64,000 bases of DNA from Polytrichum commune. Its lineage: Eukaryota > Streptophyta > Polytrichopsida > Polytrichales > Polytrichaceae. The stretch is from positions 48,050,001 to 48,114,000 of the forward strand of contig OX485804.1 in the NCBI GenBank assembly GCA_950295325.1, read 5' to 3'. The notes below the pieces were generated by a model, which saw only the letters and a list, made by a program, of their open reading frames with translations, did no database searches and had not been told where the DNA came from. The position numbers were made by a program, and so were the translations under genes. The first letter of the stretch is position 1. Every line of letters begins with the position of its first letter. Shown here in pieces: positions 1 to 37,510 of this stretch.

Positions 1-2106
1 CATGAATCCACCCCACTGCCTGTATCGGAAATGCCAAAACGCAAGCCAGTGGTTCAAATGGTGGAGGCCAGCGTCAGAGGTGGCACCCGAAGATGTCCAC
101 CAGGCTTTGATTGCCAAGTAACGTGTTTCAGCCTCTGCCACAGACCGTGCATCTTTGTACTGCATACACAATTTCTTGTGTTGATCTTGCAATTCGTGCA
201 CGATGTATTGTTTGGTGTGTTTTTCTAGGGATTGCGCCCAGTGGAAATAACACGTTCGCTCGCAGCCTTCCATGGGTATCTTTGGGTCTCCGGATCCGTA
301 GATGATGCGCACAACGTTCCAATTGGCTTGCGCACTATCAGCCATGAAACCTTTGAACTGCGGCTTGTGTATTCCATGCCTACCCATGACATGGTTAAGG
401 TTCTTCCAGAAAACGAGTTGAGCATCTTTGTCCTCAGACTGGAAATCACAGCAAACAATGGTGAGTACACGTTGGTAAGAGGAGTCGTACACGTGGCAGG
501 CCATGGTGGTCCAATTGGCAACTCGTTTGACGTGGTCGAACATCATCCAGGAGTGCTCTAAATCGCCGCTAGGTTGCATTCGGCGGACAAGGTCAACACC
601 GCTGCCAGGTCCCACCTCAGACATCTTGAATATGAAGACCTTGTCGGAGTCGTCACCTTGGCCTGGAAACATGTTTCGTTGCACGTAGGCCCAATTTCTA
701 AGCCCTCTGAGCTTAGTGATGCCATCAAGAACACCATATCTGCGCAAATACTTGAAACTGTAGACACGGTTTTTTAAGTTAGGGGAATTGAGCTCCTTGC
801 AACATTGGAAGATAGGCTCTAGCTGTTCGAGAGAAAGTAAGGTGGGAGGGTCGTCTTCTTCGCGGAACAAGACGTTACCTAAAACATCCTTGGACGTTTC
901 CAAAACTATTTTGGAAATGGTAGCCTGTGGGTTGCGCTCAACATGTTGTTCGATAAAATCGTCGATTATCTTCCCCGTGCCCCTATAGTCTCCTACCTTG
1001 ACATGATGTTTATGGTTGCCTACATGGATGCAAGCACGCTCTTGCGTATCATCTCCAAAAACGTAAAAGATTTTTGCATCACAAGAAGCTACACAAACAG
1101 GAGGTTCTTTACAGATCTTACAGACTAATGTTGAAGTTGGAGGTGGAGCGTCTGCAACAGGGAAAACATCTTTGGAAGAACCTTCGAACTCGACCTCGTT
1201 CACTCCATATGCGCGTTCAGGCCGCTGCAGAAACCCACATGTGGGATTGTGGCATTGAAGATGACCTACACAGTTAGACGACCGGAATGACAGCCCCAGC
1301 GTGTTACTGATGTTAGTAGTCATAGTCTTTGTCCATATATGGCCATCGTAACGTTTGTCCATACCTTCCATAGATTTAGCATTCTTATGGAGGGCAGATG
1401 GAAGTGTGGGAGGAAGAATGAAGATTACATCCCCATTGAACGACGGTGGCAGGAAATCCACAATCTCAGTACGGATGGAATCATAATTCAGCTTTTTAAG
1501 TACTGACTTGCTTCCAGGCATACTACCCAGGGAACGAAGGGAGGGAAGAATGTTTATGAGTTTAGTAGTTTGCGAAGGTATAAGGGAAGGAGTAGTCCTA
1601 CGTGAATCTTGAGAAGATGAGGGAGATGGACGCTTAGCACTAGACCGGATTGATGGATGGGAAGGCCTCCCCTCTTCATCAGAAGAATCAGACAAATCGA
1701 TGCTAACGCGGAGACCTGGTTCGATCTTGACACGAGACAGTAAGGGGGCTTCAGTGCACAGTGTGGAGGAACTGCGAGGAGTGAGTAGGACTGTAGTCGC
1801 GTTCATGGACTCCGACAAGCCAAAGACGCGATACCTTCCGGGCTTGAGTTTCCAAACGCGAGCATTATTGTCTAACGTTACGGGCTGGACATATAAGGAA
1901 TAAAGGACATTTCGAGTATCCGGATCGACAACATCTGTCTCTAACCACAAGCTATTAGCATCGAAACCATAACGAATGGATAGCCACTGGGGAGTGAGAT
2001 CAGCGGTTCCATCAGGGCCAGGAGGTATGCATGTAGGGATAAGAGATCCAGGAGAAACAAGTTCGATGACATCGACGAGTGGAGCTTGGACAGCAGCGGA
2101 AGACAT
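1..2106 (-). CDS. MULE-like transposase, locus A (5' part, runs off window)
   Basis: Read on the minus strand from ATG at 2106, the frame stays open for 702 codons to base 1, so the 3' part lies outside the window. The product aligns along its length with the decayed copy at 14.8-17.0 kb. Recognisable stretches in order are a Ser-rich linker after KPGRYRVFG, paired Cys motifs (CVGHLQCHNPTC, then CKIC), ITKLRGLRNW, a first candidate catalytic Asp in WMMFDHVKR, a second in FMADSAQANWNVVR, a CYFHW motif, and FWHFRYRQWGGFM at the edge. The DD spacing followed by C-x-x-H resembles Mutator-like (MULE) DDE transposases, which cut and rejoin DNA in the nucleus. The C-terminal SWIM finger seen in the other copy would lie beyond the window. 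A p1 gene lies upstream on the same strand and a divergent gene starts at 3351. The long open frame suggests recent or possible activity. Confidence 0.72.
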   Translation of the reverse strand, partial: MSSAAVQAPLVDVIELVSPGSLIPTCIPPGPDGTADLTPQWLSIRYGFDANSLWLETDVVDPDTRNVLYSLYVQPVTLDNNARVWKLKPGRYRVFGLSESMNATTVLLTPRSSSTLCTEAPLLSRVKIEPGLRVSIDLSDSSDEEGRPSHPSIRSSAKRPSPSSSQDSRRTTPSLIPSQTTKLINILPSLRSLGSMPGSKSVLKKLNYDSIRTEIVDFLPPSFNGDVIFILPPTLPSALHKNAKSMEGMDKRYDGHIWTKTMTTNISNTLGLSFRSSNCVGHLQCHNPTCGFLQRPERAYGVNEVEFEGSSKDVFPVADAPPPTSTLVCKICKEPPVCVASCDAKIFYVFGDDTQERACIHVGNHKHHVKVGDYRGTGKIIDDFIEQHVERNPQATISKIVLETSKDVLGNVLFREEDDPPTLLSLEQLEPIFQCCKELNSPNLKNRVYSFKYLRRYGVLDGITKLRGLRNWAYVQRNMFPGQGDDSDKVFIFKMSEVGPGSGVDLVRRMQPSGDLEHSWMMFDHVKRVANWTTMACHVYDSSYQRVLTIVCCDFQSEDKDAQLVFWKNLNHVMGRHGIHKPQFKGFMADSAQANWNVVRIIYGSGDPKIPMEGCERTCYFHWAQSLEKHTKQYIVHELQDQHKKLCMQYKDARSVAEAETRYLAIKAWWTSSGATSDAGLHHLNHWLAFWHFRYRQWGGFM

Positions 2107-2299
2107 TGAGAAACAATTTGACAATGTAATGGGAGAGGGAATTTGCAAAAGAGGGATCGAAAAGAAACAATGGGATATATACATGAGAGGTTGATGAAGA
2201 CGTTGGACATCCCAGACATGTACAAAATGTAGTCAGAAAATGTTTGGTTAAATATGAGAAATAATAATAACCTGTATGAACAGGATTGTGAACAATAAA

Positions 2300-2731
2300 T
2301 CATGGAGTGCCAGACGAAAATGGGGCCTTTGCCATATGGGGCCCTTTGCCATATTTGTCACCGTCATGTTTATGACAATGGTCAATCCCTAAACTACGAA
2401 TTGCAGTGCATCCTACGCAATCGAGTTTCTGACCTTTGGCATTCCTGAATATGGATCTAGAGTAAGTGCCAGGTTTAATAACACCTGCTCTAGAATATGC
2501 ATGAATCTTGAAAGTAGACTTGTTCTGTATCAGTGTTGCATCAACTGCCTGCAAAGATGGAGTCTGTGGTTTAGGAACGACGACCGCCGGAGTAACTGAG
2601 CAGTCAGGTGGGTTGAGAATCTTCAGGTTGTTGACGCCTGGAGAACCATCGAATGAAAACGTGGTGTGAATTTGCGATGAACTAGGAGCACCTAATGGAG
2701 CAAGGCTTGGGAGACGTGAGTCAGTACCCAT
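2300..2731 (-). CDS. p1, small Cys/His protein of the MULE-like element, locus A
   Basis: A 143-residue ORF starting MGTDSRLPSLAPLGAPSSSQ. The homologous ORF at 14,094-14,522 has the same start, length and reading frame although the nucleotide sequences differ, which suggests protein-level constraint. The middle is Pro/Ser-rich. A conserved KPGTYSRS block precedes a C-terminal Cys/His cluster, C-x2-C then GIDHCHKH, then GDK-x-GKGPH. The DHCHK core recalls the treble-clef/HNH region of endonuclease VII-type proteins, but the second Cys pair of that fold is missing, so a nuclease role is only a suggestion; a small zinc-binding DNA or protein adaptor is equally possible. It lies about 190 bases upstream of the transposase ATG and could be a separate small gene or a 5' exon of a longer transcript. 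A conserved TATA element precedes it. Confidence 0.6.
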   Translation of the reverse strand: MGTDSRLPSLAPLGAPSSSQIHTTFSFDGSPGVNNLKILNPPDCSVTPAVVVPKPQTPSLQAVDATLIQNKSTFKIHAYSRAGVIKPGTYSRSIFRNAKGQKLDCVGCTAIRSLGIDHCHKHDGDKYGKGPHMAKAPFSSGTP

Positions 2732-2782
2732 TGGAGAAGAATATGATGAGATGACATGAAAAAAATGGTACCAATAATCGGG

Positions 2783-2793
2783 TATTATATATA
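2783..2793 (-). promoter_or_regulatory. TATA element of p1/transposase promoter, locus A
   Basis: TATATAATA on the minus strand about 55 bases before the p1 ATG. The same element sits at the same distance in locus B (14,034-14,040). The surrounding sequence is also conserved between loci, including CTATTAATTGATCT further upstream and the ATTCTTCTCCA leader next to the ATG. Confidence 0.55.
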
Positions 2794-3245: not shown

Positions 3246-3252
3246 TAAAGGA
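3246..3252 (+). promoter_or_regulatory. TATA-like box for the divergent gene, locus A
   Basis: TATAAAG about 100 bases before the ATG at 3351, on the opposite strand to the p1 promoter. With the element at 2783-2793 it makes the 620-base interval 2732-3350 a bidirectional promoter region. Confidence 0.35.
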
Positions 3253-3350
3253 AAGGGATTCGGTGGACTAGGTCATTCAAATACAAGTTGTGTTGTAGTT
3301 CGTTTTAGGGTGTTATCATTGTTCTACAAATTTGTGTAGTTTGATCAGCT

Positions 3351-4037
3351 ATGGAGCCAACTATGGAGGGTACGAGTAGTAAAACAGACAAAGTGAATGA
3401 GGGAGGGCGGGGGAGGAAGAAGAAGAGAGGTGGTATAAAATTCAGTGGAGCCAAGGCTTTGCGACGGAAAGCGTTGCGGAAGAGGGATGCCCCGGGTTCT
3501 TGCGAAGACGATCGAATAGTAGATGAAGTAGATAAAAACGATGAGGACGAGCCAGGAATGTTTAGAAAGACTATCGAGATGCGGCCGTTGAACTTGGATG
3601 CTGTTGTTGAAAATGTTGATGGTGAAGAAGAAGACGATGGAGGGGAAAATGACAATGAAATTGAAGAGCAAGAATGTAGAAGGCCCTCATCATCGAGGAG
3701 TGATTCTTTGGGATTCGAACATGACAGTGATGAAGAAGGGATCGATAAAGTTGTAAGTTCCAAGACCCTAAAGCCTTGAAAGATGAGTATTAAACCTAAG
3801 TCATATTCTACCTTGCGTTGATGTGTATAGTACGAAGAAAGTGAGACACTGGTTGGTGAAATTTTTGGGCAGCAAGACGAGCACGGAAGTGCTGCAATTG
3901 AGGGCGCACCCAACGAAGATCAAGTCGAAGAACGCGATGTGATGGACTGCAAGAAACTAGGAGAGGAAGAAGAATTAGATGAAGGATTCCTGGTACTTAT
4001 CCCAAACCCTGGAAATTCGATGTTTATGATAATTTGA
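3351..4037 (+). CDS. Divergent gene of locus A, N-terminal exons
   Basis: Exon 1 is 3351-3752 (134 codons, phase 0) and ends in front of a GTAAGT donor. A TATAG acceptor leads to exon 2 from 3831, which can read to TGA at 4035-4037 or use a GTACTT donor after 3992 (54 codons, phase 0). The N-terminus is very basic (RGRKKKRGG, RRKALRKR); the rest is strongly acidic (GEEEDDGG, EEEELDE). No fold is recognised. The position, the basic-then-acidic layout and the short phase-0 exons match the start of the methyltransferase gene of locus B (13,724-12,970), although the residues barely align. I infer it is the 5' end of the same kind of gene, cut off near 4.35 kb by the foldback element. A further possible exon starts at 4198. 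Confidence 0.5.
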
Positions 4038-4197
4038 CGATGGATTAGGAACACATGTTGGGTAGATGTCATAAGGATATATTACGATTGTTTATATCGA
4101 TTGTTGGTCACCTGATTATAGATGTCTTTCTTAGGCAGTTGACGATGAAACGATGTTACTCCATTATTTGCAAATTTGACTCTATAAATGTTAACAG

Positions 4198-4339
4198 ATG
4201 GAATACAACCATAATATGGATGATAAAAAGTACACATCCAGTAAAATCACATATGGTGATTGTGAGGGAGAGGATTGTAAGGTGGAACCCATTCCATCTT
4301 ATAGTGACTTGCAATCTAGTTCTGGTAGCATTAGAATGG
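4198..4339 (+). other. Possible further exon of the divergent gene, locus A
   Basis: After an AACAG acceptor the frame MEYNHNMDDKKYTSSK is open and ends at a GGTAGGC donor-like site directly before the foldback element. It is acidic like the upstream exons. How it would join to 3831-3992 is unclear, because 4140-4190 also offers acceptor-like sites. Confidence 0.25.
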
Positions 4340-4357
4340 GTAGGCATCTAGTTCTCT

Positions 4358-4811
4358 TGCCGCCTGCCCGGAGGGGCGGGGCAGGGTTCGGGAGACTTTG
4401 GAACTCAACCAGCTAAAATCCGGCCCTTCACAACTTATACCGGTTTTTTCAGAATTTGTCCGGTTGCAAACTTGCTGCCATTAATTAGGACTGGCCAATA
4501 TCCTATAATTTTTTTTCGAGTGCCGGTTAATTTATTCTTCATTGTAATGACAACCGGCCAAAAACTTGGGCATGTGTTAAGTAGGAACAACACATGCCCA
4601 AGTTCTTGGCCGGTTGTCATTACAATGAAGAATAAATTAAGCGGCACTTGAAAAAACATATTATAGAATATTGGCCGGTCCAAATTAATGGCAACAAGTT
4701 TGCAACCGGTCAAATTATGAAGAAACTGGTAGATGTTGGGAAGGGCCGGATTTTAGCTGGTTGAGTTCCAAAGTCTCCCGAACCCTGCCCCGCCCCTCCG
4801 GCAGGCGGCAG
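4358..4811. repeat. Foldback (long inverted-repeat) element
   Basis: Two arms of roughly 220 bases are near-perfect reverse complements around a centre near 4582. The outer ends carry the GC-rich sequence TGCCGCCTGCCGGAGGGG and the inner ends CTTGGGCATGTGTT. The arms include ACCGG-rich blocks and AATTTATTCTTCATTG. Transcribed, it would form a hairpin of about 450 nt, a plausible small-RNA source. It lies exactly where the two divergent genes of loci A and B meet. Confidence 0.8.
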
Positions 4812-5010
4812 TGTCCCAACTCTGTTTGGGAGTTCGGGACGAGGGAGGCTGAGGGAAGTGGAGGTAAGGCGAGGGGAAGTCGGAGGAGGGAGGCGAGGGG
4901 ACGTCGGAGGAGGGAGGCCGAGGTTAGATTTTTCAAAAATGGAGAGACTAGAGGTGACATTTTTCAAAATGTTTTTTTTTTGGATGTCGGATGTCGGATG
5001 TCGGATGTAC
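4812..5010. repeat. GA-rich low-complexity stretch with short tandem GATGTCG units
   Basis: Imperfect repeats of GGAGGAGGGAGGC at 4850-4920 and four tandem units of GATGTCG at 4982-5008. The latter abut the splice donor of the last methyltransferase exon of locus B. Confidence 0.5.
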
Positions 5011-5343
5011 TGCCGATGTCAAATGCAGACGGTTCATCCCCCACCACTCCTTGTGAATTTCAAATCCGTAGGACTTGCAGTATCCGAGTATGTTTGATTT
5101 TGTGCTCAATTGAAAAGGATGAATGATGATGAGTGCACCACCATCCTGGAGGTGTTGGTCGGCAAAATCAAAAATGGGCTCCAGCCATTCCTTAGAATCC
5201 TGGTTCCATAAGGGCACAGATGAAATAAGGTTCGAAATACCTGGAACTGGGAGACCTTCTGGTTGGTCCACAAGGATCAAATCCACACAAGGGTGGTTTC
5301 CAGAAGATCCTTTGTACGCACACCTTTTATCAGATGAATGCTG
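5011..5343 (-). pseudogene. Methyltransferase gene exon 10, motif IV region
   Basis: 111 codons, phase 0 at both ends. DLILVDQPEG sits where beta-class amino-methyltransferases carry the catalytic [DNS]PP[YFW] loop (motif IV), followed by EWLEPIFDFADQHLQDGG and a GALIIIHPF strand, the usual pattern of a strand after motif IV. The intron that follows starts at 5010; the motif I exons expected next are missing here but present at 33,148. Confidence 0.5.
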
Positions 5344-5896
5344 CTAAATGAGCAATTCAATGCATGTAAGAAACGTAACAATTTCAAAAGCAAACAGAAA
5401 TGGAGAACTAAACACTACCAGTTGCAAAACATAACCACATCAGATGGGCAAATGAGAATAAAGATACCTTAGAAATAAAAGCTTTGAGGTCATCATAGAG
5501 GGGCGATAAACTGCCCGATTCACCGCCAAGGACCTCAAACAATGATGAATTAAGAATGACCTCATCATTCATGCAATTGGCCTCCTCTGTGAGATCAACA
5601 ACCGGCAACTGGAAACACTACTAGAAAATCATGACCAAATCAACAGAAAATCAACAGATTTGTGTTGATTTGGGCACTGCAATGACCTATTTCACTGAAT
5701 TTGTAACTTCTTGCCAAAACCAACAGTTTGGTGCCTATTTTTTGTTGATTCGAGTAGTACAATGGCCAAATCAACAAAACTCACGCAAAATTAGAATCTT
5801 TACAATATTCCATTATCCTTTTGGAAAATTTTTCGAGTATTTTGAAATCTTTTTAAACCATTCGAATCTTTTGGAATCTTTTGGAATCTTGAATAC

Positions 5897-6447
5897 TACT
5901 AAATACTGTAAATAATATATTGCAAATTATACTATAAATAATATAGTGCAGGGTATACTATAAATAGTGTATGCATATTATATTATAAATAGTATATTAC
6001 ATAATAAAGTATAAATAGTATATTACATAACATAGTATAAATAGTATAATCTGTAATATACTAAAAATAGTATAATCTGTAATATACTTAAGATAGTATA
6101 GTTTAAAATATACTATAAATAGTACAATCTGCAATATATTAAAAATATGATATGATATATTATACTATAAATAGTGTATTCTGAAAGACATTATTTATAG
6201 TATAACTTGCAATATATTATTTTTAGTATATTTTTGAAGATATGTTAATATTATATTTTAGAATATAAGTAAATACTACATTTCAGAATATATGTATATA
6301 GAACATGTCAAAATATACGTAAATAGTATGTGTCAAAAAACACATAAATAGTATATTTCATAATATACATAAATAATCTATTTTAGGATATACGTATATA
6401 CTAAGAATTTATTTAAATAGTATATATCAAAATATATTGTAAATAGG
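5897..6447. repeat. AT-rich array of short palindromic units
   Basis: About 20 to 25 degenerate units of 20-25 bases built on TACTATAAATAGTATA and variants, many self-complementary. It lies within the CACTA element. No coding capacity. Confidence 0.65.
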
Positions 6448-6467
6448 TTTGAAGTGTTCCTCACATA

Positions 6468-6924
6468 CAGTCTACCCTCTATAAATGTTAACCTCCGGGA
6501 GTGGATCAAAGTTAACATTTATAAAGGTGTTAACATCTAACAATCATAAAATTATTTTTTTGAGCAATATACAAATCTTAACATTTATAAATATAAGCAA
6601 TTGTGAAGAGTGCTTGTGAGAGAATACCATTCATAAAATTGCAAACCCAATTAAAACTTTATTTCAATATCAAGTTTACAAATCATGGGTGAAGTATGAA
6701 TCAATGGTTCTTTGGTAATTGAATGTGTAGTCTTTATCATCCACCTCATGGTTGTATTTCATTTGTTAACATTTATAAAGTTAAATTTACAAAGAAGGGA
6801 GTACCATTTTGTTAACAATTAACACGTTTAACATTTATAGTGTGCAATATGTGGGGAGTAGAAGAAAGTTAACATTTAGAGAGGGTTAACACTTATAGGT
6901 GTAACATTTATGGAGGGTGCACTA
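6468..6924. mobile_element. Tigger/pogo-type MITE
   Basis: The left end is CAGTCTACCCTCTATAAATG and the right end is an imperfect reverse complement (ACATTTATGGAGGGTGCACT), flanked by TA dinucleotides. Internal copies of GTTAACATTTATA recur. The end sequence and TA target resemble the larger Tigger element at 31.4 kb. It is nested in the CACTA element. Confidence 0.6.
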
Positions 6925-6959
6925 TAAAAGGGTTTAAAGCACTCCCTTTATATCAAGAA

Positions 6960-7110
6960 AGTGTGTTGACTTGGTGGTTAGAACCACCAAGTGGGAATCC
7001 CAAGGTTGGGGGTTCCAATCCCTTGGCCCGCAACTATGACCTCTAGCCTAGCCTAGCAAGCCTAGGCGAGTATGTTGGAGTTGATGGGGACGTAGTTTGT
7101 GCTGTGGTAG
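6960..7110 (+). repeat. Possible tRNA-derived SINE
   Basis: A TGGTGGTTAGAACCACC stretch resembling a Pol III A box is followed about 40 bases later by GGGGGTTCCAATCCC, resembling a B box. There is no clear tail or target duplication. Confidence 0.25.
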
Positions 7111-7865
7111 TAGTCTGAAATTAATTTTTTTTGCCCGAACATCCAGGCCGTAAAAAATAAAATTTTCCGGAAAATCCGGAAAGTAAAAAATTGATTTTTA
7201 TTTTTATTTTTGTTGGTAAACTTTTGATGACCAGATCAACAGAACAGATCAACAAAACCGTGTTACAGAGTGTCCAGGTCAACGCGTCCTAAGTAACAAC
7301 CGCGACCAACATTTTTTTGTTGATCCGGACGCAAAATTTTCTACTAGTGAAAAAAAGCTCATATGAGGTGTCCCTCTTAGTACCCCTAGCTGAAACTGAG
7401 CGAATCTGGGAACCAGAGTCCACGGTTGGACTAGGTTGCACATGACTTATCATTTCTACCTCTACAGGAGTTGACACCTTCTTCTTGCCTTTCTTCGTCG
7501 ATTTTGCAGCTGCTTTCTGCTGCCTCTCCAACTCCTTCAGGTGAGCTTTTTCTTCTGCCTCCTTCACCTTGAGGGCTTTCTTGCGGTCCTCTTCAATCCG
7601 CCTCTTCAGTGCCTTAGCCCTGTCGTTGTCATCCTCGATGCCCTTCAAGTCCTGCATCTCCTCTCCAGACTCTCCAATAGCCTCGCGTGATTTCCTCAAT
7701 TCCATCTCAAAAGGTGGGGGTGTAATGTGTAGCACAATCGAGATACCACGCGCCAGAAGCAAGGTGTGAAGTCGTCCATGTCCTCTGCTGGGCAGCTGTG
7801 AACATGCATGCAGCGTTGGACCGGTTCAACCAAGTACTCAAGAAGAGCGGCAAGAAAGCAAACAC

Positions 7866-8101
7866 CTGAAGAGGACTTTTCTCACAACAAGGTCCGTTCC
7901 CTTGTATCCCTGGAAATCATCAATTTTCTTAAAGCAGTCGTGACCGCGAAACACCGAGACAAATGCATGGTCCCAAAGCGCGATCCTGCATTCCTCAATA
8001 TATGCAGCCAAAGCTAGAGGCTCGGAAGGCACAGACATGTCGATGGGGATGCGATCCTGTTGAACTATGTCCTCAAACATAGTTGTCGCATTATCGGAAA
8101 T
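7866..8101 (-). pseudogene. Methyltransferase gene exon 8, locus B
   Basis: 236 bases starting in phase 0 at a CAG acceptor and ending in phase 2 at a GTGTTT donor. It encodes MFEDIVQQDRIPIDMS, CRIALWDHAFVSVFRG and a KGTDLVVRKVLF strand. No family is recognised. It may form part of the methyltransferase core or a target-recognition region. Confidence 0.4.
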
Positions 8102-8118
8102 CTGAAAGTAAACAAATT

Positions 8119-8993
8119 ACACAATGCTCCTTAGAGTGCCTTCATAGTTGAACTAAACCCACATGAAATCAGAATATAAACCAAAATCATTTAAACCCCC
8201 CTACCCTCCCCTTAATTCCTATCAACCTCGAATTCCAAAATAGTGGTATCGGACCAGAATGCTCCCTAGAGTGCCTGGATAGTTGAACTAAACCCACATG
8301 AAATCAAAATATATACCAAAATCATTTAACCCCCCCTCCCTAACCTGCCCTTAATTCCTATCAACCTCGAATTCCAAAATAGTGGTCTCGGACCAGAATG
8401 CTTCTTAGAGTGCCTTCATAGTTGAACTAAACCCACATGAAATCATAATATAAACCAAAATCATTAACCCCCCCCCTAACATCCCTTTATTTCCTATCAA
8501 CCTGAAATTCCAAAATAGTGGTCTCGGACCAGAATGCTCACTAGAGTGCCTTCATAGTTGAACTAAACCCACATGAAATCAGAATATAAACCAAAATCAT
8601 TTAACCCCCCCCCCTAACCTGCCCTTAATTCCTATCAACCTCGAATTCCAAAATAGTGGTCTCGGACCAGAATGCTCCTTAGAGTGCCTTCATAGTTGAA
8701 CTAAACCCACATGAAATCAGAATATAAACCAAAATCATTTAACCCCCCCCCCCTAACCTGCCCTTAATTCCTATCAACCTCGAATTCCAAAATAGTGGTC
8801 TCGGACCAGAATGCTCCTTAGAGTGCCTTCATAGTTGAACTAAACCCACATGAAATCAGAATATAAACCAAAATCATTTAACCCCCCCCCCTAACCTGCC
8901 CTTAATTCCTATCAACCTCGAATTCCAAAATAGTGGTCTCGGACCAGAATGCTCCTTAGAGTGCCTGCATAGTTGAACTAAATCCACATGAAA
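8119..8993. repeat. Intronic minisatellite, about 7 units of 135-139 bp
   Basis: Each unit contains TTGAACTAAACCCACATG, ACCAAAATCATTTAA, a C-run of 6-10 bases, CCTATCAACCTCGAATTCC and GTCTCGGACCAGAATGCT. TTGAACTAAA recurs at intervals of 135, 139, 136, 138, 139 and 137 bases. It fills part of the intron between exons 7 and 8 of the locus B methyltransferase gene. Confidence 0.9.
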
Positions 8994-9611
8994 TACCACA
9001 CAACTTGCTCAATGCATGACCTCAATGCCCAATGATATGCACCACAAAATTTACACCAACATATTCAAATGGACTTAAGATCAAGGTCTACACATGTAAG
9101 GTTGAATATAACCTATCCTCATATATAGCTCCCCCCATGTCTTATTTCAAGAGTGGAAGTTAACTTAAGTTCTAGATAGCTCTATCTAATTTCAGTTAAT
9201 TAATATCTAGTTATCTAAGGTATACTTTGATACATCCACATTAGTTATCTAGTTTCCATATTGCTAGTTTCCATATGTGTTGAGGTTGCACTTAGTGTAT
9301 AGGTTCAATAGGGCACAAACTAGGCCTTTCATAATCCAAAGCAAGCATTGGAGGTCAATTGGTCAAGCTTGCGGCAAAGGTAGTGATGTTCGGAAGAGGC
9401 TTTGAATACCATTTCACCCATCTATGAAATGGTGTGTCCATAAAAGCAATGCTATATAAATTGGAAAACACTTAACCCTTATAGCTCCAAGGAGCCCATA
9501 GTACAACCCAAAGTGTGTGGGTATTATTTCCTTAATTTTCCAAGTTCTCTAACTTCAATTTCAACATTGCAAACTGTGTCGGAAAATACTGAAGTTTCAA
9601 GATATTCATAC
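8994..9611. other. Remainder of the exon 7-8 intron
   Basis: AT-rich sequence in which I see no gene, repeat or element end. Confidence 0.4.
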
Positions 9612-10478: not shown

Positions 10479-10563
10479 CTGAAACACAATAATACATACA
10501 TGAAAATGTTTCGAATTCAGGAACAACCTCAAAGATAATTAAAACGCTGAAAATCACACTTAC

Positions 10564-11249: not shown

Positions 11250-11591
11250 CTTCAAGTCGCCCAAATATTGCATCAAGTGTCACTACAACCGATTCAAGTT
11301 CCACCAGAAGCAATGTTTAAAAATTAAAGGTATTAGAAAATTAGTGAAAGCTTCCAACTTAATGCAAAAAGTTACAACTTTACCCAAACAACACCAAATT
11401 TATAATACACAGCAGACCCAGTATTTGAAAATGAATGGTATTATAAAGTTCAAATGGATACTTCAAAACTTTAAAATGAAAACTTCAAATGAGGAGATCC
11501 ATACATCCCTAGAAAGCTAACATCAGCAACTAAAAGGTCACAAAGTCTCAAAGCAAGGGAATGAAATGACTAAGAGATATGGCCTATCAAA

Positions 11592-12175
11592 GTGATGCCA
11601 AAAGCACTGACCCTAACCCTCCCCCCCCTAAATCATAAACCTATCAATCCTACAACCTGAAACAATACTGATATCAAACTGAAAGGCAAAAAAATGATGT
11701 TAGGCCCCTAATGTACATAATGAAGGCTTCAAGCTTGATGAAAGAACTTAGAAATTAAACCAAAAGCACTCACCCTAACCCCCCCCCTAAATCAGAAGCC
11801 TATCAATCCTACAACCTGAAACAATACTGATATCAAACTGAAAGGCAAAAAAATGATGCTCGGGCCCGAATGTACATAATGAAGGCTTCAAGCTTGATGG
11901 AAGAACTTAGAAATAAAACCAAAAGCACTCACCCTAACCCCCCCTAATCAGAAGCCTATGACTCCTACAACCTGAAACAAAACTGATATCAAACTGAAAG
12001 GCAAAAATATGATGTTCGGGCCCTAATGTACATAATGAAGGCTTCAAGCTTGATGAAAGAACTTAGAAATAAAACCAAAAGCACCCACTTTAAACCCCCC
12101 CCCCTAATCAGAAACCTATCAATCCTACAACCTGAAACAAGACTGATATCAAACTGAAAGTCAAACAATTGATGG
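11592..12175. repeat. Intronic minisatellite, about 4 units of 156-162 bp
   Basis: CCAAAAGCAC recurs at 11,598, 11,760, 11,919 and 12,075. Units contain a C-run, CCTATCAATCCTACAACCTG, CTGATATCAAACTGAAAG and a CGGGCCCGAATGT block. It is a distant relative of the 8.1-9.0 kb units: same order of C-run, CCTATCAA and CGG-CC-GAATG blocks. It lies in the intron between exons 3 and 4. Confidence 0.85.
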
Positions 12176-12396
12176 TCCCCCCCCAAACTCACATGTTCCA
12201 ACATAGTTTAGACTGTAGAGAATCCCCACAACCGACTCTGCCGGCCCAACCTCCTTTGCGTCTCCAATCCGCGTTTCAGACAAGACTCAAAATGGGCAGG
12301 TTGAAGCCAAGACTCTATTCTATTTCTTTACAGAGAGAAATACTCTATCAACCTAACTTGAAAGAGATAGACATCGAGCCTGCCACACAGACAGCA

Positions 12397-12715
12397 AGCG
12401 GCGACCAAGCGTTCATAGCAACGTTTGATCCTTCAATGTCGGCTCTTCCTATCATTGTCGAGCAGAATTCACCAAGTGTTGGATTGTTCCCCACCAATAG
12501 GGAACGTGAGTTGGGTTTAGACCGTCGTGTGACAGGTTAGTTTTACCCTACTGATGCGCGGTGCCGCAATAGTAATTCAACTAAGGTACGAGAGTAACCG
12601 TTGATTCACGTAATTGGTCATTGCGCTTGGTTGAAAAGCCAGTGTCGCGAAGCTACCATGTGTAGGATTATGATTGAATGCCTCTAAGTCAGAATCCATG
12701 CTAGAAGCGGCGCTT
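12397..12715 (+). pseudogene. 25S rRNA 3'-end fragment (nuclear)
   Basis: The stretch reads as the 3' part of eukaryotic 25S/28S rRNA: CCAAGCGTTCATAGC, ATGTCGGCTCTTCCTATCAT, AGAATTCACCAAGTGTTGGA, CAGGTTAGTTTTACCCTACT and TGCCTCTAAGTCAGAATCC in the correct order. It carries small deletions and substitutions, including one in the normally invariant region after CTACTGATG. It is not part of an rDNA unit. It lies within an intron of the locus B methyltransferase gene, on the opposite strand. Confidence 0.88.
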
Positions 12716-12784
12716 TCTACCTCCCCGGTTGTAAGTGTCGAGCTCTGTCAATAAAATGGGTATCCACATCCCCGACTAACCCTA

Positions 12785-12893
12785 TCAAACTGTAATGTTT
12801 GCAGACTGGGTTCGGACCCGAATGCCCCTAAACAAGCTGCAATGTTGAACTCAGCACATACCAAATCAAACCCATAAGCCAAAATTCATCTTT
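12785..12893. repeat. Single diverged unit of the intronic minisatellite family
   Basis: TCGGACCCGAATGCCCCTAA, TTGAACTCAGCACAT and CCAAAATTCAT occur in the same order and spacing as in the 8.1-9.0 kb units. Confidence 0.55.
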
Positions 12894-12969
12894 GCCCTTA
12901 TACGAGTCTACACCATTCAACCACATTCGAGAAAGACGGAAGATTTTGGTTTATGGTTTGACATCGTAC

Positions 12970-13256
12970 CTCTTCCCCGAATTGATGCTCGTTGTTGTCC
13001 ATGCTGGCTTCGCATAAATCAACTACATCAGCGTCCTCATCGAATTCGGCAAGGCTCTGTTCAATAAATATGCCCTGTGCTTAGTAGGTATGTTGTACTC
13101 CACATAAAGTGTTATCATTGAAAGCGAAACCTTAACCTATACCAAAAACCCTCAAATTCAGCAATTGAAACAATCTTTGCAGACCTGCTGCTCAGTATGA
13201 TCCGATGTTGAGGTAGTCGAGGCTGCACCAGGTTGTTCCTTTGTCTGGGTCATGCC
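12970..13256 (-). pseudogene. Methyltransferase gene exons 2 and 3, locus B
   Basis: Exon 2 (13,256-13,185, 24 codons) and exon 3 (13,074-12,970, 35 codons) are both phase 0, begin with GG after a CAG acceptor, and end at GTCTGC and GTACGA donors. They encode a Thr/Gln-rich linker and an acidic stretch (AEFDEDADVVDL). Confidence 0.45.
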
Positions 13257-13439
13257 CTGTTCCAAATGTCAAAGCCAAGTCAAAGTCATATTCCAGATTC
13301 AACAACAAATGTGAGCCGATAATATTGCCCACACGGCAATGGAATATTTTGGGTCTCAAATGTTGTAACTTACTGTCCACAAAGTTAATTATATCATTGC
13401 ACTTAAAGAAATATAATTATGATAGCACATAAATATCAC

Positions 13440-13724
13440 CTCACTTCCCCCTTTGTCAACTTGGTTTTCTTCCTCCGATACAGGAAATAAAACTACTGGA
13501 TCTACCGCTGAAACATCAAATGGTTTTTCCCCTTCAGATCCTCTAGCTGTGGCCCTGGAAGATTTAACTCCTCGCCTACCCATTGTTGTCCGCAAGTTAT
13601 ACGGCGTTCCAATCCTCTCCCTTGATTCTAACCTTTGCCTTCTCTCAATACGCCTCTGCTTTTCAATGTTCCTCCTAACTTCTTGATCTGCTCTCGCTCT
13701 CGACCTAGTATTCATCTCTATCAT
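13440..13724 (-). pseudogene. Methyltransferase gene exon 1, locus B
   Basis: 95 codons, phase 0, ending at a GTGATA donor. The start is ATG at 13,724 or a second ATG three codons later. The Arg-rich N-terminus (TRSRARADQEVRRN, RRIERRQR) is followed by an acidic tail (SEEENQVDKGGSE). It could be a nuclear localisation or nucleic-acid-binding tail. It is divergent from p1, which starts at 14,094. Confidence 0.5.
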
Positions 13725-13742
13725 TATTGATGCAAAGAGATC

Positions 13743-13750
13743 TTATATAT
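13743..13750 (-). promoter_or_regulatory. TATA box of the methyltransferase gene, locus B
   Basis: TATATAAG about 20-30 bases upstream of the ATG at 13,724 on the minus strand. With 14,034-14,040 it marks the bidirectional promoter of locus B. Confidence 0.4.
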
Positions 13751-14033
13751 CATTGTCAACTCTGTCATAATTAACATATATTCGCCATTTTGTTCACATT
13801 GGATATAGATAATTAATCTCCTAATTCTTGAATTATCACTCAGCGCTATAACCTATTATACCTAATCGAATCCTGCCATGTCAGATATTTGGTGTTCATA
13901 AATGATTCACAATTATTCAAGTCCATTCTATTCTTACATGTTACAGGTTGTCCAGCATTTACCTAAATAAATATTGACTATTAATTGATCTACAAGATAT
14001 CATATATACAGGCATTGGTGCCTACATTGGGTG

Positions 14034-14040
14034 TATATAA
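14034..14040 (+). promoter_or_regulatory. TATA box of p1/transposase, locus B
   Basis: TATATAA 54 bases before the p1 ATG at 14,094, conserved in position and context with locus A. Confidence 0.55.
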
Positions 14041-14093
14041 TATGAGATTGCTTGTACCCATTCCTTCATCTCGTTTCATCATATTCTTCTCCA

Positions 14094-14522
14094 ATGGGTA
14101 CTGACTCAAGACTTCCGAGCCTTGCTCCTTTAGGTGCTCCTAGTTCATCACAAATCCACACGACATCGTCGTTCCCCGGTTTTGCAGACGGCAACAACAT
14201 GAAGATACTAAACCACCCTGACTGCTCAGTTACTCCAGCGATCGCAGTTCAGAGTCCACATCCCTGGACTCCATCTTTGCAGACGGATGTTGCAACGCTG
14301 ATAGAGGACAAGTCTCCTTTACAGACTCATGCCTATTCTAGAGTAGGGGTTATTAAACCGGGCACTTACTCTAGATCTCTATTAAGGAGTGCCCCACGTC
14401 CTCAAGGTCAGGGACCCGGTTGCGCAGGATGCACTGCAGTTCATAGTTTAGGGATTGACCATTGCCATAAACATGCCGGTGACAAAAATGGCAAAGGGCC
14501 CCATAAGCGTCTTCGTCATTAA
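14094..14522 (+). CDS. p1, small Cys/His protein of the MULE-like element, locus B
   Basis: A 142-residue ORF homologous to the minus-strand ORF at 2300-2731. It shares MGTDSRLPSLAPLGAPSSSQ at the start, a KPGTYSRS block, and the cluster C-x2-C-TA, SLGIDHCHKH, GDK-x-GKGPH. The frame is intact although the transposase downstream is not. The ATG follows a leader (ATTCTTCTCCA) identical to locus A. The C-terminus differs from locus A (HKRLRH versus a longer tail). Function unknown; it could be a zinc-binding accessory factor of the element. Confidence 0.58.
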   Translation: MGTDSRLPSLAPLGAPSSSQIHTTSSFPGFADGNNMKILNHPDCSVTPAIAVQSPHPWTPSLQTDVATLIEDKSPLQTHAYSRVGVIKPGTYSRSLLRSAPRPQGQGPGCAGCTAVHSLGIDHCHKHAGDKNGKGPHKRLRH

Positions 14523-14831
14523 TCTCAATTTAGCATTCTAATATTATTACCGAGCTTATATCATGCTCTACACATTATTCTTGGCGGCCGTCATTCTTAT
14601 GACCTTATTTGCCAATATATATTTTATTCATCAATGTTTAGAATGTATGCATGTTATTGGATTATACTATTTGGTTTCTTACCTGTCTCGGACTTACGTC
14701 CAAAATTGGTTTTTCAACCTTCTTTCAGCTTAATCTGCATGACTAGTTCATATATTGCCAGTTGGCTCTGTAATTGCTCTCCTGGTATATATTGTCGCCA
14801 TTTCAATGGTCATTGTACTTGTTTTGGTTAG

Positions 14832-17800
14832 AGTTCTGTGGAATACTATGGCCCTGCTTCGTGCTGATCCTCCTTCTGTTCCTGTCCTCTTTCCATTATG
14901 TGAAAACGGTCATGCTATAGTCACTTCTACAACATTAAGTTTGAGGTTTCAGTATCGTGAGGTCACTGTCTTTGTCGAAGAAGAGGTTTTTGACGATCAT
15001 ACCGGTCTGGTTTCACATGCAATTCGTCATACTAGAGTTGAGAATGACGTCGGTGCGTTCTGGTTGGTGAAGCCTGGAAAATATCGTGTATATGGAGTCT
15101 CAGATTCTATGTTATAGTGTTCGACTGAACTCCTAACACCTAGGGAGTCGTCCACTGTTAGTGTTGAGATACATGTGCTGTCTAAGGTCAAAATTGAGCC
15201 CGGTCTACAGACAATTTATGAGTTGAGTGATGATTCCGACGGCGATGTTGAAGTCCTAAAATCAGAGAGTCCAGTCCAACCTTCGCTGACTCCAGAAGCA
15301 GTTCGCAAGGAAACAACTCGTCCTGTTAGTCCCTCTCGTCATTCTGGTCAGGCCAAGGTTGTCGCAAGTCCTCCTCTCAGTATCGTTCTTTCATTGATGC
15401 GCCTTGGAGCTCGTAAGCGGTCCAAAAGCGTGTTGTCTCGAATTAACTTTGATGCGATCAGACTCCAGCAGGTTGATTACCTTCCCCCTCGTTACGATGG
15501 TGACGTTATCTTCGAATTTCCACCTTTAGGTGACCATGGGCTGAATACAAAGGCCAAGCAGCTTCGTGGAATGGATAGAAGGTACGATGGCCATGCTTGG
15601 TCTCGCACGATTACATCCAATATTTAGAATGATCTCAAGCTTTTGTTTCGTACATCTTCTTGTTTGGGCCACCTCCGTTGCGACAATCCTGCCTGTGAGT
15701 ATCTTCAGCGAGACCACAGGACTTTTAGCGTGAATGAAACAGAGTGGGAAGGATTATCTGAGAAATTGTTTGAAGTAGGGTCCAAGCCTCCCGCTGGGTC
15801 GACAGTTGTTTGCAAATCCTGTAATGTCCCTCCCACCTGTGTTGCTCTCTGCACTGCCAAGATCTACTATGTTACTGGAACACCTCACATGACGAGGGTT
15901 TGTGTGCACTTGGGATCTCACGACCATCCTGTCAAGTCTGGTGATCATCGGGACTTCATCGATTTGGCAGACAGCTTGATTGGGGATCAAGTCGAACGCA
16001 CCCCTTCCGCCACTCGCTCTGCTATTGTGCTTGAAACTGCAAAGGAAGTTCTGGGCCCACTCCTCCTTGCTAAAGAAGGTGACCCACAGAAGATCTTGGA
16101 GCTGGACGAGCTGCAAGGTATTTTCGATTGGTGTAAGCACCTCACCTCGCCCAACATTCATAACGCAGTCACCACGTTCAGGACTATGCGTCGCTTTGGA
16201 GTCATGGACAATATTACCAAGTTACGGGGTGCTAGCAATTGGAGGTTCGTGCAGCAGAATAGGTTTCCAGGGCAAGGAGCGGACATGGACAAGGTCTTTG
16301 TGTTCAAGATGTCTGAAGTTGGACCGGGCAGCGGAGTCGACCTGGTCAAACGAATGCAACCCGGTAGTGACTTGGAGAACTCCTGGATAATGTTTGACCA
16401 TGTCAAACGGGTCGTGGACGACAATGGCTTGTCATGTGTACGATTCCACATACTGCCGTGTCATGACCATCGCAGTATGCGACATGCAATCTGAAGATGT
16501 TGCAGCCCAGTTAGTGGTATGGAAGAACCTGAACGCTCTCATGGCTCAACATGGAGTGGACAAAGTTAATTTTAAAGGTTTCATGGCCGACAGTGCCCAA
16601 GCGAACTGGAATGTTGTTCGAATCATATACGGAAGTGGAGATGCGTCTGAGAAGATGGTGGACAGAGAGAGGACTTGTCTTTTCCATTGGACGCAGTCCT
16701 TAGAGAAACACCAAGGCCGATATCCGTCAAGACCTGCAATACCAGCATCGAATACTATGCCATCAATACAAGAATGCGAAATTGATGGCAGAGGCAGAGA
16801 CAAAGTTTCTGGCAATTCGGGCATGGTGGATGTCATCCGGTGCAGCAACTGAACAAGCTCTACCCCGACTGGAGCTCTGGCTGGCCTTCTGGCATTTCCG
16901 TTACCGCCAATGGGGTGGATTTATGGAGTTGGTAAGTCTATACTTCCCATCCCCTTACCTGTATATTTCACTCTTTATAGTTCAACTACAATGATTTCGC
17001 CATTAGTCTAATTCAGAGTCTATGGGCATTGCAGAATCTAAGTGAAGCTGAACTAGCGGAAATGCCATCCTGTAACTTGGCTGAATCTATCCATAACAAG
17101 TGGAAGCAGCAATCCGGCGATCGAGGCAGCGATCTTTATGTGGCAACAGTCGATGATTTCGTGCGTGCTTTCATGCAATGCTCAGCATATTCCTAGTTCT
17201 TGAAGGGAGACAACCCTGGAACTGGACCGTCGAAGGAGGAATTGAAGCTGAGGCGTGCTCCAAGGTCTGCCGCAAAAACAGGAATATCGAAACCGCTGCA
17301 TGAGGCCATTCTGAAGATGCATGGTGGTGAGGATTGGTGCACAAGGACTCCCCACCTCGAAGGGGAAGAGGTATTTGTTTCTCTGAAGCGTAAACCAGAC
17401 ACTGCTTTCGGTGATGAACGTGAATCTCATAGGCCAGACAAAATCAGTGTATCCCGACCACGCGTCCAAACCAGATCTGCCCGACTTAACGATTCTCCTA
17501 CTCCTGTGACAATTCCAGATTCTCCCACAACTCCCACAACTGTAGATGAAGAGCAGCCGCAACTTCCAACACACGACGCTCTGCAACAGGTGGATCGACA
17601 CCACGTCACCGCGATTGAGGAGACATTATGCAACCCTGCCCAGTGGCACATCGCACGGCTGCCTAAGACATCTGCGAAGGCTTGCTTTGCTTTACAAGCA
17701 ATTACTAAGAAGAAGTGCGTCGCTCGGATTGTACAAGACGGGAAGAGCACCGCTGCACCTACCTACTCAGGCCTCATGGATAACTTTCGGAAGCAGAGAT

Positions 17801-18492
17801 TGGACCCTCAAGACTTCTTTTTCTGCAATAACGACATTGAGAGATGCGTGAAGGGTACAAAAATGAGATGGGTGGTCTCAGTCCCGAACGTTCCGGATGT
17901 ATGGCTTGTTAAGTTGGGGACCAACTTAACCTGCAAAGAAATCCTCACTTTAGAAAACGCAGGCTTTAGACTGCCCCAGTGGAAGGAGATGACACCTTCC
18001 AGAAATTTTCAGGACCACCCGTTACCTTTGGACTTAGCAAGCTACACGACACCTGCATATCCAGATGAGTTTCCCACCCGGCGTTCAGGGAAGTTGATTA
18101 GGCGCAACAAGAAGGCCCCGTCAACAAAACACGCCAATAATTGTGCCTCAGCCCTATCACTGAAAGCCAAAGTGCACAAATTGTGCATGCTTCTAGCCCC
18201 TGCCTTAGGATGCATCGTCTCGTTGGATTCCGGCACGCCCCCAAAGGTTCAGCAATACTACTTGACGATTTCGCAGCTGCCAGCATGCACTTGTCCTAAC
18301 TTCAAGGAGATGGCGACTAAAGCAATTGGAAAAAGGGGTCAATGGGCCAACTGCAAGCATTTATACTATTTGTTTACAGTAGTGTGTGGTTTGGACTCAG
18401 ATTCAAACACGTTCATTCATGCAGCTAGTTTTAGCTTCAACGAAGTGAAGCGAGTTTTGCAGGCTGGTTTATTGAAGTACCTTGACTCTTAG
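14832..18492 (+). pseudogene. MULE-like SWIM transposase, locus B (decayed)
   Basis: Homologous to the locus A ORF. A TTGGTTAG acceptor suggests an exon start near 14,832. The frame is broken by TAG at 15,115, 15,625 and 17,194 and by deletions, relative to locus A, of 5 bases near 16,410 and 2 bases near 16,700. An intron at 16,932-17,016 (GTAAGT to CAG, phase 0) is inferred. The motif order matches locus A (MFDHVKR, FMADSAQANWNVVR, CLFHW, FRYRQWGGFM), then NLAESIHNKW, a Pro/Thr-rich linker, and a SWIM zinc finger, ACTCPNF followed by NCKH, in the last open stretch of 430 codons (17,200-18,492). SWIM fingers are typical of MULE and related transposases. It is transcribed with p1 and divergent from the methyltransferase gene. 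Confidence 0.75.
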
Positions 18493-18559
18493 AGTTTTCT
18501 GTTTCTTTAAAGAAACATATGTATACAAGATTTTATATAATCATGATGTAGTGAGACTA

Positions 18560-19560
18560 AAAGGGCCACTACAAAATTCCATAAGTGTTAACATTTTTTC
18601 TATTCCCTACTTGGGGAGACTACAATAACGTTAAGTGTTAACTGTTAACTGATTGGCTACTCCCCTCTTTGTAATTTTGCCCTCTATATCTGTTAACTTA
18701 TTATTATATTATATAATACTATACAATACAATATACTATAACATAGCACATGTAATATACTGTCACATACTATAACATACCCCCCATTTAGAAATTATTA
18801 GGGTTTAAGTTATTGACTGCAAGTCCCTCCCTCGTCAACTCAGTGCACCCTAGCAGGTTGAGCCAATCTACCAGCGTTCGAATTTTTGAGTGTTACAATG
18901 ATGTGCAGTCTTCTCTTCAAACTTTACGTCATTATCTTGAGCAGAGGTCTACTGATATTATGCATTTGGTCAAGAAATTAGAAAAGTTTGAGAAAGAGAT
19001 TGATCACCTACATGTGAATCAGCTCCAGCAGACCTCTATAGATGCCTTCTTCCATCCTAGAGGAGTGGAAATGGAGGAGTGAAACTCCTCAATTGTATTT
19101 TGGAACTTCATTTGGTATTATAATAATATTTTACTTGTGTTACATTTATACGTGTTATGTTTTGATTTGTTCAACTTTGTATTTCTATAAGTGTTACAAA
19201 TGCTCAATTTAATACCCTACACCATATTTTTCACAGATACAGTAACATTTTTTCCTGTAATTGTCCACGGCCATAGGACCCATAGTTTACTAAGTTTAGA
19301 AAAAAACTTTACTAAAAATACATTTAGTCTAAAAATATTGTAACCTTACTGCTCTAAATAACATTTTCATCAAAATATCTCGGAAGTTACCGCTCACCAC
19401 TCACCGCTCGCAAAATAGCTTCGTCCAGGACATGTCTTCCGTTTTTATGTCAATTGTATATAAATTGTTGAAGTGCATTTTGTTTATTTTAAAGCTTAGA
19501 AATATATACATATATATTGTATTCTTCCATAAATGCTACCGTAGTTGAACCCTAGTTTCA
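18560..19560 (+). mobile_element. Degenerate Tigger-type element
   Basis: Stretches such as CCCTCTATATCTGTTAAC and ATAAGTGTTAACA resemble the ends of the Tigger elements at 6.5 and 31.4 kb. The interval contains the tail of a Tigger-like protein at 18,813-19,082. Exact ends are not identifiable. It separates the locus B transposase from the long repeat at 19.6 kb. Confidence 0.4.
18813..19082 (+). pseudogene. Tigger-like transposase C-terminal remnant with PIP box
   Basis: An ORF whose C-terminal half is a charged helix (MHLVKKLEKFEKEIDHLH) followed by QTSIDAFF near the end. This fits the PCNA-interacting PIP box (Q-x-x-I-x-x-F-F). The layout matches the tail of the 31.6-32.6 kb Tigger protein, which ends QCDIRSFF. 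The upstream HTH and DDE parts are missing. Confidence 0.45.
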
Positions 19561-19623
19561 ACTCATTTCTTCAATTGGATAATCTCACTAGAAGGACAAT
19601 GCATTTCCTTCAATGGTTATTTT

Positions 19624-20941
19624 GCATTTTTTAAAATATGAATAGCAGTTTAACACAAAAAAAATAAGTTTTATTGCCTCCAAACACCCGTGGGGCGTTT
19701 GGTTATGTTTATGGGCTCATGCTGCCAATTTTAATTGCAGCATTGTACTAACTGAAAAAGCTGAATGATTGCCAACCCATAAAAGTTGCCTAAGTTCAGA
19801 GGGGGCCTTGGCGAGAATAATAATGAAAATTCTTGTTTATACTCCATCTTTAGTTGTTTCTTAAAGAAGCAACCTGTCATAGAATATTTTAATCTCCTTA
19901 ACGAGGTAAATTCTCCATTTAAGTACTAAGTTGAAGTCCATATTTATGGTGTAAATATGGTCAAGTGCATCATATAATTTAGCATATAGTTCTAGCATCA
20001 ATGTCAAAATTTGTGATGTATGGGAGGGAATTATGAAAATAAGGAGTGAGAATTAACACTCAAAACATCCATTCTTTAGGGTTTTGAGATATAAGAAGCA
20101 ATGTCAATAAGGAGGTTAATACAAGAGACTTTATAGTATATTGCATGGGAGAGTCAACAATTTAAATAAGTTACATTGGAGTGTGTTATTTGAATACATT
20201 TTTTCGAGGTGGCACCTATTCATAATTAGTTTGTATAGTCTAGATAATGTATGGATGAAAGTTATGCTCGTACGTGATAATCACCCTTTTCTAGCCACTT
20301 CAAAAGAGCCATGTGTCAAGAGGTTTTGGACTTAAAGTAGACGTGCTTAATTCAGTTGCTTATCTTAATGAACACCTATCTTTGAGTGGTATGTGGTTAG
20401 ATGTAGCTACAAAAATGGAAACCCAAACAAATAAAAAAGATCGGACTATATACTCTATAGTATGATCCCCATCCTAGACGCAATACCTAATGAACATATT
20501 TGAGGGGACCTACCTACATGACCGATTAACAAGCACAAGAATATTCACTTGTTGGATTGTATAAACTTCGCCATTTAAATTATTGTTTCGAGGATGCCAG
20601 CCCTAATTACGCCCTTAGCCTTAAACACTAAAACAAATTTGTGAATTAATTAAAACACAATTTCATTTCAACCTTGAACGGTCCTCATTTAAATCACCCT
20701 TTCATATAAATGATGACATCAGCCCTAATTTCACTATATATATAATAACAATAATTTGTAGTAGGACCCCTTCCACGTATTTGGGGTACTCTTTTCCCTT
20801 AAAATATACATTTACAATTTTGTCCGGACCAAATTCAGTGGTAATAGGATCCTTATGTTTCAATAAAAAATTTAAAAGCGAGCGGAGAAATTCACGAAAA
20901 CATGACGCTCACCGCTCTACGCTCATGCTGTAACTTTCCCC
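19624..20941 (+). repeat. Long terminal repeat region X1, beyond the locus B transposase
   Basis: Homologous in the same orientation to 34,013-34,804. The first ~100 bases (around CCTCCAAACACCCGTGGGG) and the last ~410 bases (from GAATATTCACTTGTTGGATT to the end) are about 95% identical by eye. The middle is longer here, because it contains the right end of a MITE (about 20,010-20,140) and other sequence. The outer end is CTCATGCTGTAACTTTCCCC. One copy follows the transposase, the other follows the methyltransferase 3' exons, as expected for the two long TIRs of a divergent-gene MULE. Confidence 0.6.
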
Positions 20942-37465: not shown

Positions 37466-37510
37466 TTTGGTTTCCTTCCCTCTAGAAACGGCTGGAAAGT
37501 CAATTTTTTA

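Follow-up and report, generated by a model that had tools for sequence, protein, structure and literature searches.

The window, a 64,000-nucleotide stretch of the genome of Polytrichum commune (C2:48050001-48114000), begins within a transposable element in which a transposase gene and the gene for a small protein, p1, lie head-to-head with a multi-exon gene encoding a ParB-methyltransferase-like protein. We compared this arrangement with the sampled genome (408 Mb, mainly in seven large contigs). On the basis of element structure, it is virtually certain that both genes belong to a single family of DNA transposons. As a whole, the explanation that we consider probable is such a family together with a ParB-type clamp protein whose methyltransferase-like domain is altered.

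Common ends, target duplications, and genome-wide pairing

The last 405 bases before the right end of the window element (position 20,941) were found at 31 genomic places, including two in the window. We examined 20 of the 29 places outside the window, over 9.9 kb each. All 20 right-end loci shared the final base (...AACTTTCCCC), and their flanks look unrelated. ParB and/or methyltransferase exons were present in 19 of these loci, and the exon encoding methyltransferase motif IV was present in 17; two loci (L026 and L037) contained the ParB exon only, and L028 had neither exon type in its examined stretch, which begins within the gene region.

The left end (i.e., the first 400 bases of the full copy E described below) was found at 28 places, 26 of which could be matched to a correctly oriented right end (spans, 10.8 to 90.7 kb); no partner was identified for two left ends and five right ends. 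Flanks were read for 13 pairs, and a 10-bp target duplication was perfect in 11 of them (ten by script and L026, whose end has a base variant, by eye). Of the other two pairs, L030 differed at one base, and L024 showed no match. For the window element, TAATGAAAAC flanks both sides as a perfect 10-bp duplication. The terminal inverted repeats were short and imperfect (GGGCGTTGCTAGGGCATGAGCGTAGA / GGGGAAAGTTACAGCATGAGCGTAGA), with a length of about 26 to 28 bp as aligned by eye (the script's local alignment gave only an 18-base match of GAGCGTA repeats). The reading that the 405-bp right end recurs as a long inverted repeat at the opposite end was rejected, given that none of its 31 places had an inverted partner at element distance.

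Copy E (C7:40361280-40375209; 13,930 bp), a leftward extension of L025, contained the transposase (-), p1 (-), and the ParB-methyltransferase-like gene (+), and was flanked on both sides by ACGAAACAAT. Its transposase frame was open over 738 aa. E is full length yet not intact, with one stop in the motif-II exon of the ParB-methyltransferase-like gene. A preliminary description of this DNA had proposed that the two genes move together and suggested a genome-wide search for copies with both genes inside one pair of terminal inverted repeats and 9- to 11-bp duplications. E is such a copy, and the common ends and 10-bp target duplications of many copies strongly support joint mobility.

Diverged types of the family are labeled here with letters (e.g., A-type and C-type). 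A search with transposase A gave 2,190 candidates, of which 80 were scored; 24 were close relatives (93 to 100% identity), and 56 had 66 to 69% identity. Of the 80 scored transposases, at least 46 had a scored, divergently oriented methyltransferase exon no more than 30 kb away, 2 had such an exon solely in another orientation, and 32 had none; random placement gave a mean of 0.43 and a maximum of 3 divergent pairs in 500 trials. The value of 46 is a lower bound because the exon matches listed include no row within the A-type paired elements. These pairings, with the 26 paired-end copies and their duplications, refute the view that a transposon merely lies beside an unrelated, ordinary plant gene, which has no support beyond a single-window view and which we regard as practically out of the question. 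One of the 24 close transposase matches lay within 21 of the 26 paired elements, so the family does not show the Pack-MULE pattern of captured host sequence without a transposase.

A first look with the C-type motif-IV exon gave 1,019 candidates; the 150 that were scored all had E<=1e-24. Among these 150, 11 copies with 96 to 100% identity were each located <2 kb from a right end, and 9 of the 11 were inside paired ends. Counting first-look candidates, the carrier family may comprise more than a thousand loci.

Two paired-end copies contained additional genes. In a 41-kb copy, the A-type 3' half was preceded by a second, diverged ParB-methyltransferase-like gene (L019:2205-5354; motif IV, QFPDG). 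In a 34.6-kb copy on C7, we detected a NIF-like phosphatase (L029:815-1504; PF03031, 5.8e-12), which may be a captured gene or a nested insert.

The transposase and its ParB-methyltransferase-like partner

The preliminary description had assigned the element to the MULE class. MULEs produce target duplications of 9 to 11 bp, and the family has 10-bp duplications and terminal inverted repeats. By eye, transposase B contains a SWIM-like motif (CTCPNFK...NCKHLYYLF; the final H is R in type A), and both transposases have a D/D/E-like layout (D..D..CxxH..E). However, no Pfam family, MULE and SWIM profiles included, matched the transposase up to E=1 for the whole protein or E=10 in parts, and the 142 Pfam MULE matches of the genome all lie outside the window. 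Profile-profile comparison (hhalign) with three MULE proteins from the same genome gave no match (probability, 0.2), and neither did a PDB search. Because there was no match to a MULE transposase profile, we refer to the transposase as MULE-like and not as a member, and its placement in the MULE superfamily is not proven. The failed Pfam, PDB, and profile-profile searches would favor a carrier from another or a new transposase superfamily with 10-bp duplications. We nevertheless regard this as unlikely, since the duplication length, the SWIM-like CxC...CxH, and the D..D..CxxH..E layout seen by eye fit MULEs.

For the ParB half, a ParB/sulfiredoxin fold was predicted (AF2 [AlphaFold] model of relative P0121; predicted local distance difference test score, 85). 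The ParB-CTPase fold was named for 30 of the 32 VIA entries listed for this model, the other two being unnamed proteins, and for 43 of the first 44 Foldseek rows (best E, 1e-2; probability up to 0.99). An [x]GNHR motif (G-x-H/R-R type) was present in 112 of the 120 relatives listed. None of the Pfam ParB families matched the 62 members searched up to E=1, and the ParB exon profiles had no useful match among PDB sequences. A weak match to DUF6551, presented in excerpts of PMC12704722 as a fusion partner with a ParB fold, was found in 3 of the 62 members (best, 0.048).

For the methyltransferase half, we used exon alignments because the full-length C protein had no match at E<=0.001 among 8,000 scored candidates from a protein database. 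The exon-alignment profile A1 matched DpnA (1.1e-5) and CcrM (5.6e-4), while the deeper alignment A4, searched against PDB, gave DpnA at 0.06 and unrelated chains from 0.14. Pfam PF01555 (N6_N4_Mtase) was detected in 4 of 6 members (best E, 1.8e-4), and the joined window exons scored 24.7 bits against a cut-off of 26.7. The hand-joined ParB-methyltransferase-like proteins were 1,089 and 1,117 aa long, the beta-class motif order IV-X-I-II was recovered, and the A and C types were 37% identical over 1,034 aa. Given the DpnA and CcrM matches, this A-C identity, and the 26 paired-end copies, the observed arrangement lies well outside what chance would give. Thus, the profile and fold checks proposed in the preliminary description found relatives of both halves; neither of the results that it had named as refuting (i.e., the two genes never between common ends, or no methyltransferase fold in profile searches) was obtained.

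The consensus of motif IV in amino-methyltransferases is (D/N/S)PP(Y/F/W). Motif IV was readable in 74 of 133 domain rows, from the 120 relatives listed, and this consensus was found in none of the 74. D/Q-x-P-E/D predominated, with an acidic residue at position 4 in 64 rows and an aromatic residue in one; the DPPY of DpnA lines up with D-x-P-E in a weak local part of the alignment. The E of motif II was retained in rows reaching that motif, and motif I reads DWQCGTG in the C type (G-x-G retained) versus DWSPSTG in the A type. The altered motif IV thus disfavors ordinary amino-methylation and favors binding or sensing.

The preliminary description had suggested that a self-encoded methyltransferase marks or protects the DNA of the element. 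This was supported in part: the homology to amino-methyltransferases stood, whereas active self-methylation found no support, given that the catalytic tetrapeptide is replaced in almost all relatives examined. An active enzyme producing N6-methyladenine (6mA) or N4-methylcytosine (4mC), also suggested for the algal relatives, is therefore a reading that we consider improbable. The recovered beta-class order, the motif II E together with the G-x-G of the C type, and a printed prediction for the Ectocarpus relative (excerpts of PMC12477816) speak for it; the motif IV counts and the DWSPSTG of the A type speak against it.

Ratios of nonsynonymous to synonymous differences (pN/pS), calculated as simple uncorrected proportions, were 0.25 for the A-type gene (12 copies per exon; ParB, 0.24; motif IV, 0.21; motif I, 0.30) and 0.21 for transposase A (3 copies). 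The C-type ratio was 0.60 with few changes (3.2 for the motif-IV exon, on very few). Between the A and C types, pS was 0.79 and pN 0.39, near saturation. From the A-type ratios, function seems to have been retained in the A line. These values also bear on a Pack-MULE-style reading, in which the element captured the ParB-methyltransferase-like gene as a passenger with no function for the element. The left parts of the C-type copies are mosaic, one 34.6-kb copy also carries the NIF-like phosphatase, and the C-type ratio is 0.60, all of which would suit a passenger. We nonetheless consider it very unlikely, since the divergent pairing also surrounds transposases merely 66 to 69% identical to type A, the A-type ratio is 0.25, and the A and C proteins are still 37% identical.

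In the family layout, a transposase and p1 lie head-to-head with a gene for an approximately 1,100-aa ParB-methyltransferase-like protein, and the 3' end of this gene adjoins the right end. In the explanation that we prefer, the transposase would move the element, and the second protein would bind element DNA via its ParB-fold, nucleotide-dependent clamp domain. The methyltransferase-like domain appears to keep parts of the S-adenosylmethionine (SAM)-binding site, not the usual catalytic motif, and the protein is more likely a binding, SAM-sensing anti-silencing or transposition factor than an ordinary N6-adenine/N4-cytosine methylase; it may thus mark or protect the element by means other than the usual methylation chemistry. 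We give this noncatalytic mechanism a little less than an even chance. GAGCGTA 7-mers occur in E twice at the left tip (L040:5598-5618) and three times, in the opposite orientation, at the right tip, and nowhere else in this copy; their number differs from element to element. (GAGCGTA)n, present at the two tips only, is a candidate clamp loading site. ParB sites spread along the element were considered and rejected: among enriched 7- and 8-mers, only the tip 7-mer was tied to the element, and the rest were mostly simple or A+T-rich. A bolder version, which we hold to be rather doubtful, would be a very abundant lineage of plant DNA transposons in which a ParB-fold clamp, fused to an amino-methyltransferase domain with altered catalytic residues, is the standing partner of the transposase. 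This SAM-sensing, element-specific clamp would load at the (GAGCGTA)n tips, where it would block host silencing or assemble the transposition complex. VANDAL MULEs are a similar case, in that a MULE-like element encodes a second factor that may counteract silencing. VANC in VANDALs would be a functional parallel of the second protein, although VANC is not known to contain a ParB or methyltransferase domain.

The composite element and the second copy in the window

The features of the composite element are as follows (window positions).

1..20941: composite element, 23,049 bp, with its left end 2,107 bases before the window start (C2:48047893); defined by paired ends and the 10-bp duplication
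1..1590 (-): main exon of transposase A, extending left past the window start; SWIM-like part at -1,343 to -1,645; 97% identity to the E copy
2318..2485 (-): conserved core of p1 of locus A, in an open frame at 2,300-2,848; 93% identity to E p1
3345..4980 (+): acidic 5' portion of the ParB-methyltransferase-like gene of the A type, interrupted by locus B at 4,980; colinear with the sequence lying 5' of the full-length gene at L025 and other loci
4981..19426: locus B segment, inverted within the A-type element and replacing its 3' part; gene arrangement at about 5,008-19,082
5008..5343 (-): motif-IV exon of the B gene, reading DLILVDQPEG; 38 to 39% identity to the C and A genes
7716..8110 (-): two exons from the middle of the B gene; tblastn with the C-type protein, E 8e-8
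9615..10136 (-): two exons from the middle of the B gene; tblastn with the C-type protein, E 2e-8
10289..10474 (-): B gene exon next after the ParB exon; tblastn with the C- and A-type proteins
10566..11069 (-): ParB-fold exon of the B gene, with DGNHR and one in-frame stop; from the alignment and fold of relatives
14346..14504 (+): p1 of locus B; 75% identity to E p1
15376..18480 (+): transposase B, with stops and a frame break; SWIM-like motif at 18,187-18,480; 51 to 56% identity to transposase A
19427..20941 (+): right-end region of the A-type element; 98 to 99% identity in L019-L023 and L025, with the same final base
20,941: right end of the composite element; terminal sequence CTCATGCTGTAACTTTCCCC
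20942..20951 (+): right copy of the target duplication, TAATGAAAAC; the same 10 bases precede the left end in L039

Homology to the A-type element ends at 4,980 and restarts at 19,427; therefore, locus B occupies a site in an A-type element. About 5.3 kb of A-type sequence, including the A methyltransferase half (i.e., the 3' part of the gene), is missing at this site. Directly left of 19,427 is a terminus-like sequence, GGAAGTTACCGCTC..., which would fit a history in which B inserted and a deletion came later. L028, the right end of the 90.7-kb pair, was colinear with window positions 11,623-20,924 at 97.6% identity; judging from this colinearity, the composite seems to have been copied.

As the preliminary description had stated, p1 and the SWIM-type transposase of locus B diverge from a multi-exon gene with a DGNHR segment and a motif-IV exon, and locus A repeats the layout as a mirror image, with the transposase and p1 on the (-) strand and the divergent gene on the (+) strand. 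The acidic exon of locus A is probably part of the ParB-methyltransferase-like gene. Exons of the B gene were supported from 11,069 to 5,008; those proposed at 11,069-13,724 had no relative in tblastn and are unconfirmed. The window copies are defective (a stop in the B ParB exon and a broken B transposase); open frames for those exons exist at other copies, and in L028 the transposase frame is open over 697 aa. Tandem repeats of ~139, ~159, and ~26 bases are located in or beside the B gene introns (8057-9028, 11600-12186, and 5877-6231, respectively).

The second right end in the window belongs to a C-type copy.

33107..34804 (+): C-type 3' part, with a right end as in the composite element; 97 to 99% identity to L029, L031, L032, L035, and L036
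33148..33411 (+): motif X/I exon, DIVMDWQCGTG; protein identical to L031; N6_N4_Mtase match under the cut-off
33510..33695 (+): motif II exon, ALERDSEIFEA
33791..34009 (+): last exon; 96% to the L031-based protein

The preliminary description had joined 33,148-34,012 to the exons of locus B. This continuation was ruled out: the segment is the 3' end of a separate C-type copy (33,107-34,804), as its identity with the five C-type loci indicates. The left-end search of the genome found no left end for this copy. We also rejected C-type copies as 5.8-kb methyltransferase-only elements, given that the left boundary they share is no terminus and that the left ends of nine paired ones are 15 to 43 kb off.

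Relation to known systems and other features of the window

According to PMC12477816, Sola1-1_Ec32 of Ectocarpus is a 21.5-kb Sola1 element with an opposite-strand gene for a 1,104-aa ParB and N4/N6 methyltransferase protein, and green and red algal cases are cited there as what may be a new class of accessory proteins. Like Sola1-1_Ec32, the present family consists of large DNA transposons with a ParB and N4/N6 methyltransferase protein of ~1,100 aa encoded opposite the transposase strand (in E, the window, and the divergent pairs). Unlike this brown algal Sola1 element, it resides in a plant and has a SWIM-type transposase, a 10-bp duplication, p1, and several diverged types. Motif IV of the present family is altered. 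Fusions of a ParB fold and an N6_N4 methyltransferase occur more often in phages (PMC12704722), and they join the ParB-CTPase fold to the same methyltransferase family as here; these phage and prophage fusions are prokaryotic, whereas the present gene is a many-exon eukaryotic gene with an altered motif IV. DNA methyltransferases captured by retrotransposons, with reported activity, are described for Symbiodinium and charophytes (PMC5890265). They likewise place a DNA methyltransferase gene in a transposable element, once in the streptophyte line, but are cytosine-5 enzymes, in contrast to the amino-methyltransferase relatives in a DNA transposon reported here.

In the literature searched, in which subscription journals were thinly covered, we recognized no MULE-like or land-plant ParB-methyltransferase transposon; ParB-methyltransferase genes in eukaryotic transposons were named by PMC12477816 only, and the excerpts of PMC12695648 contained nothing on them. 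The statement in the preliminary description that no plant MULE with such a gene had been described thus stands for the literature searched, although DNA transposons of algae already have such accessory genes. What is new here is the MULE-like carrier, in a plant, with more than a thousand candidate loci at first look; algal transposons with ParB-methyltransferase proteins are already known.

Transposon-borne proteins of the DNA-modification type bear on the escape from silencing and on the origin of eukaryotic 6mA and 4mC enzymes. Because many copies show the pairing with exact ends and duplications, it can be tested directly. The altered motif IV is a warning against naming methyltransferases by domain name alone.

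To the right of the second copy, 36301-46472 contains several direct and inverted repeat pairs that are ~75 to 92% alike, possibly short nonautonomous elements. A Ty3 chromovirus-type long terminal repeat (LTR) retrotransposon is located at 55278-61383; its LTRs match perfectly over 804 bases, it has a 1,539-aa frame with a chromodomain, and 56-base inverted arms (55065-55120 and 61522-61577) flank it. In the genome, chlorophyll a/b-binding proteins gave 58 matches, which marks it as that of a plant or alga, including fourteen equally scoring genes within 95 kb at C5:1751760-1846160.

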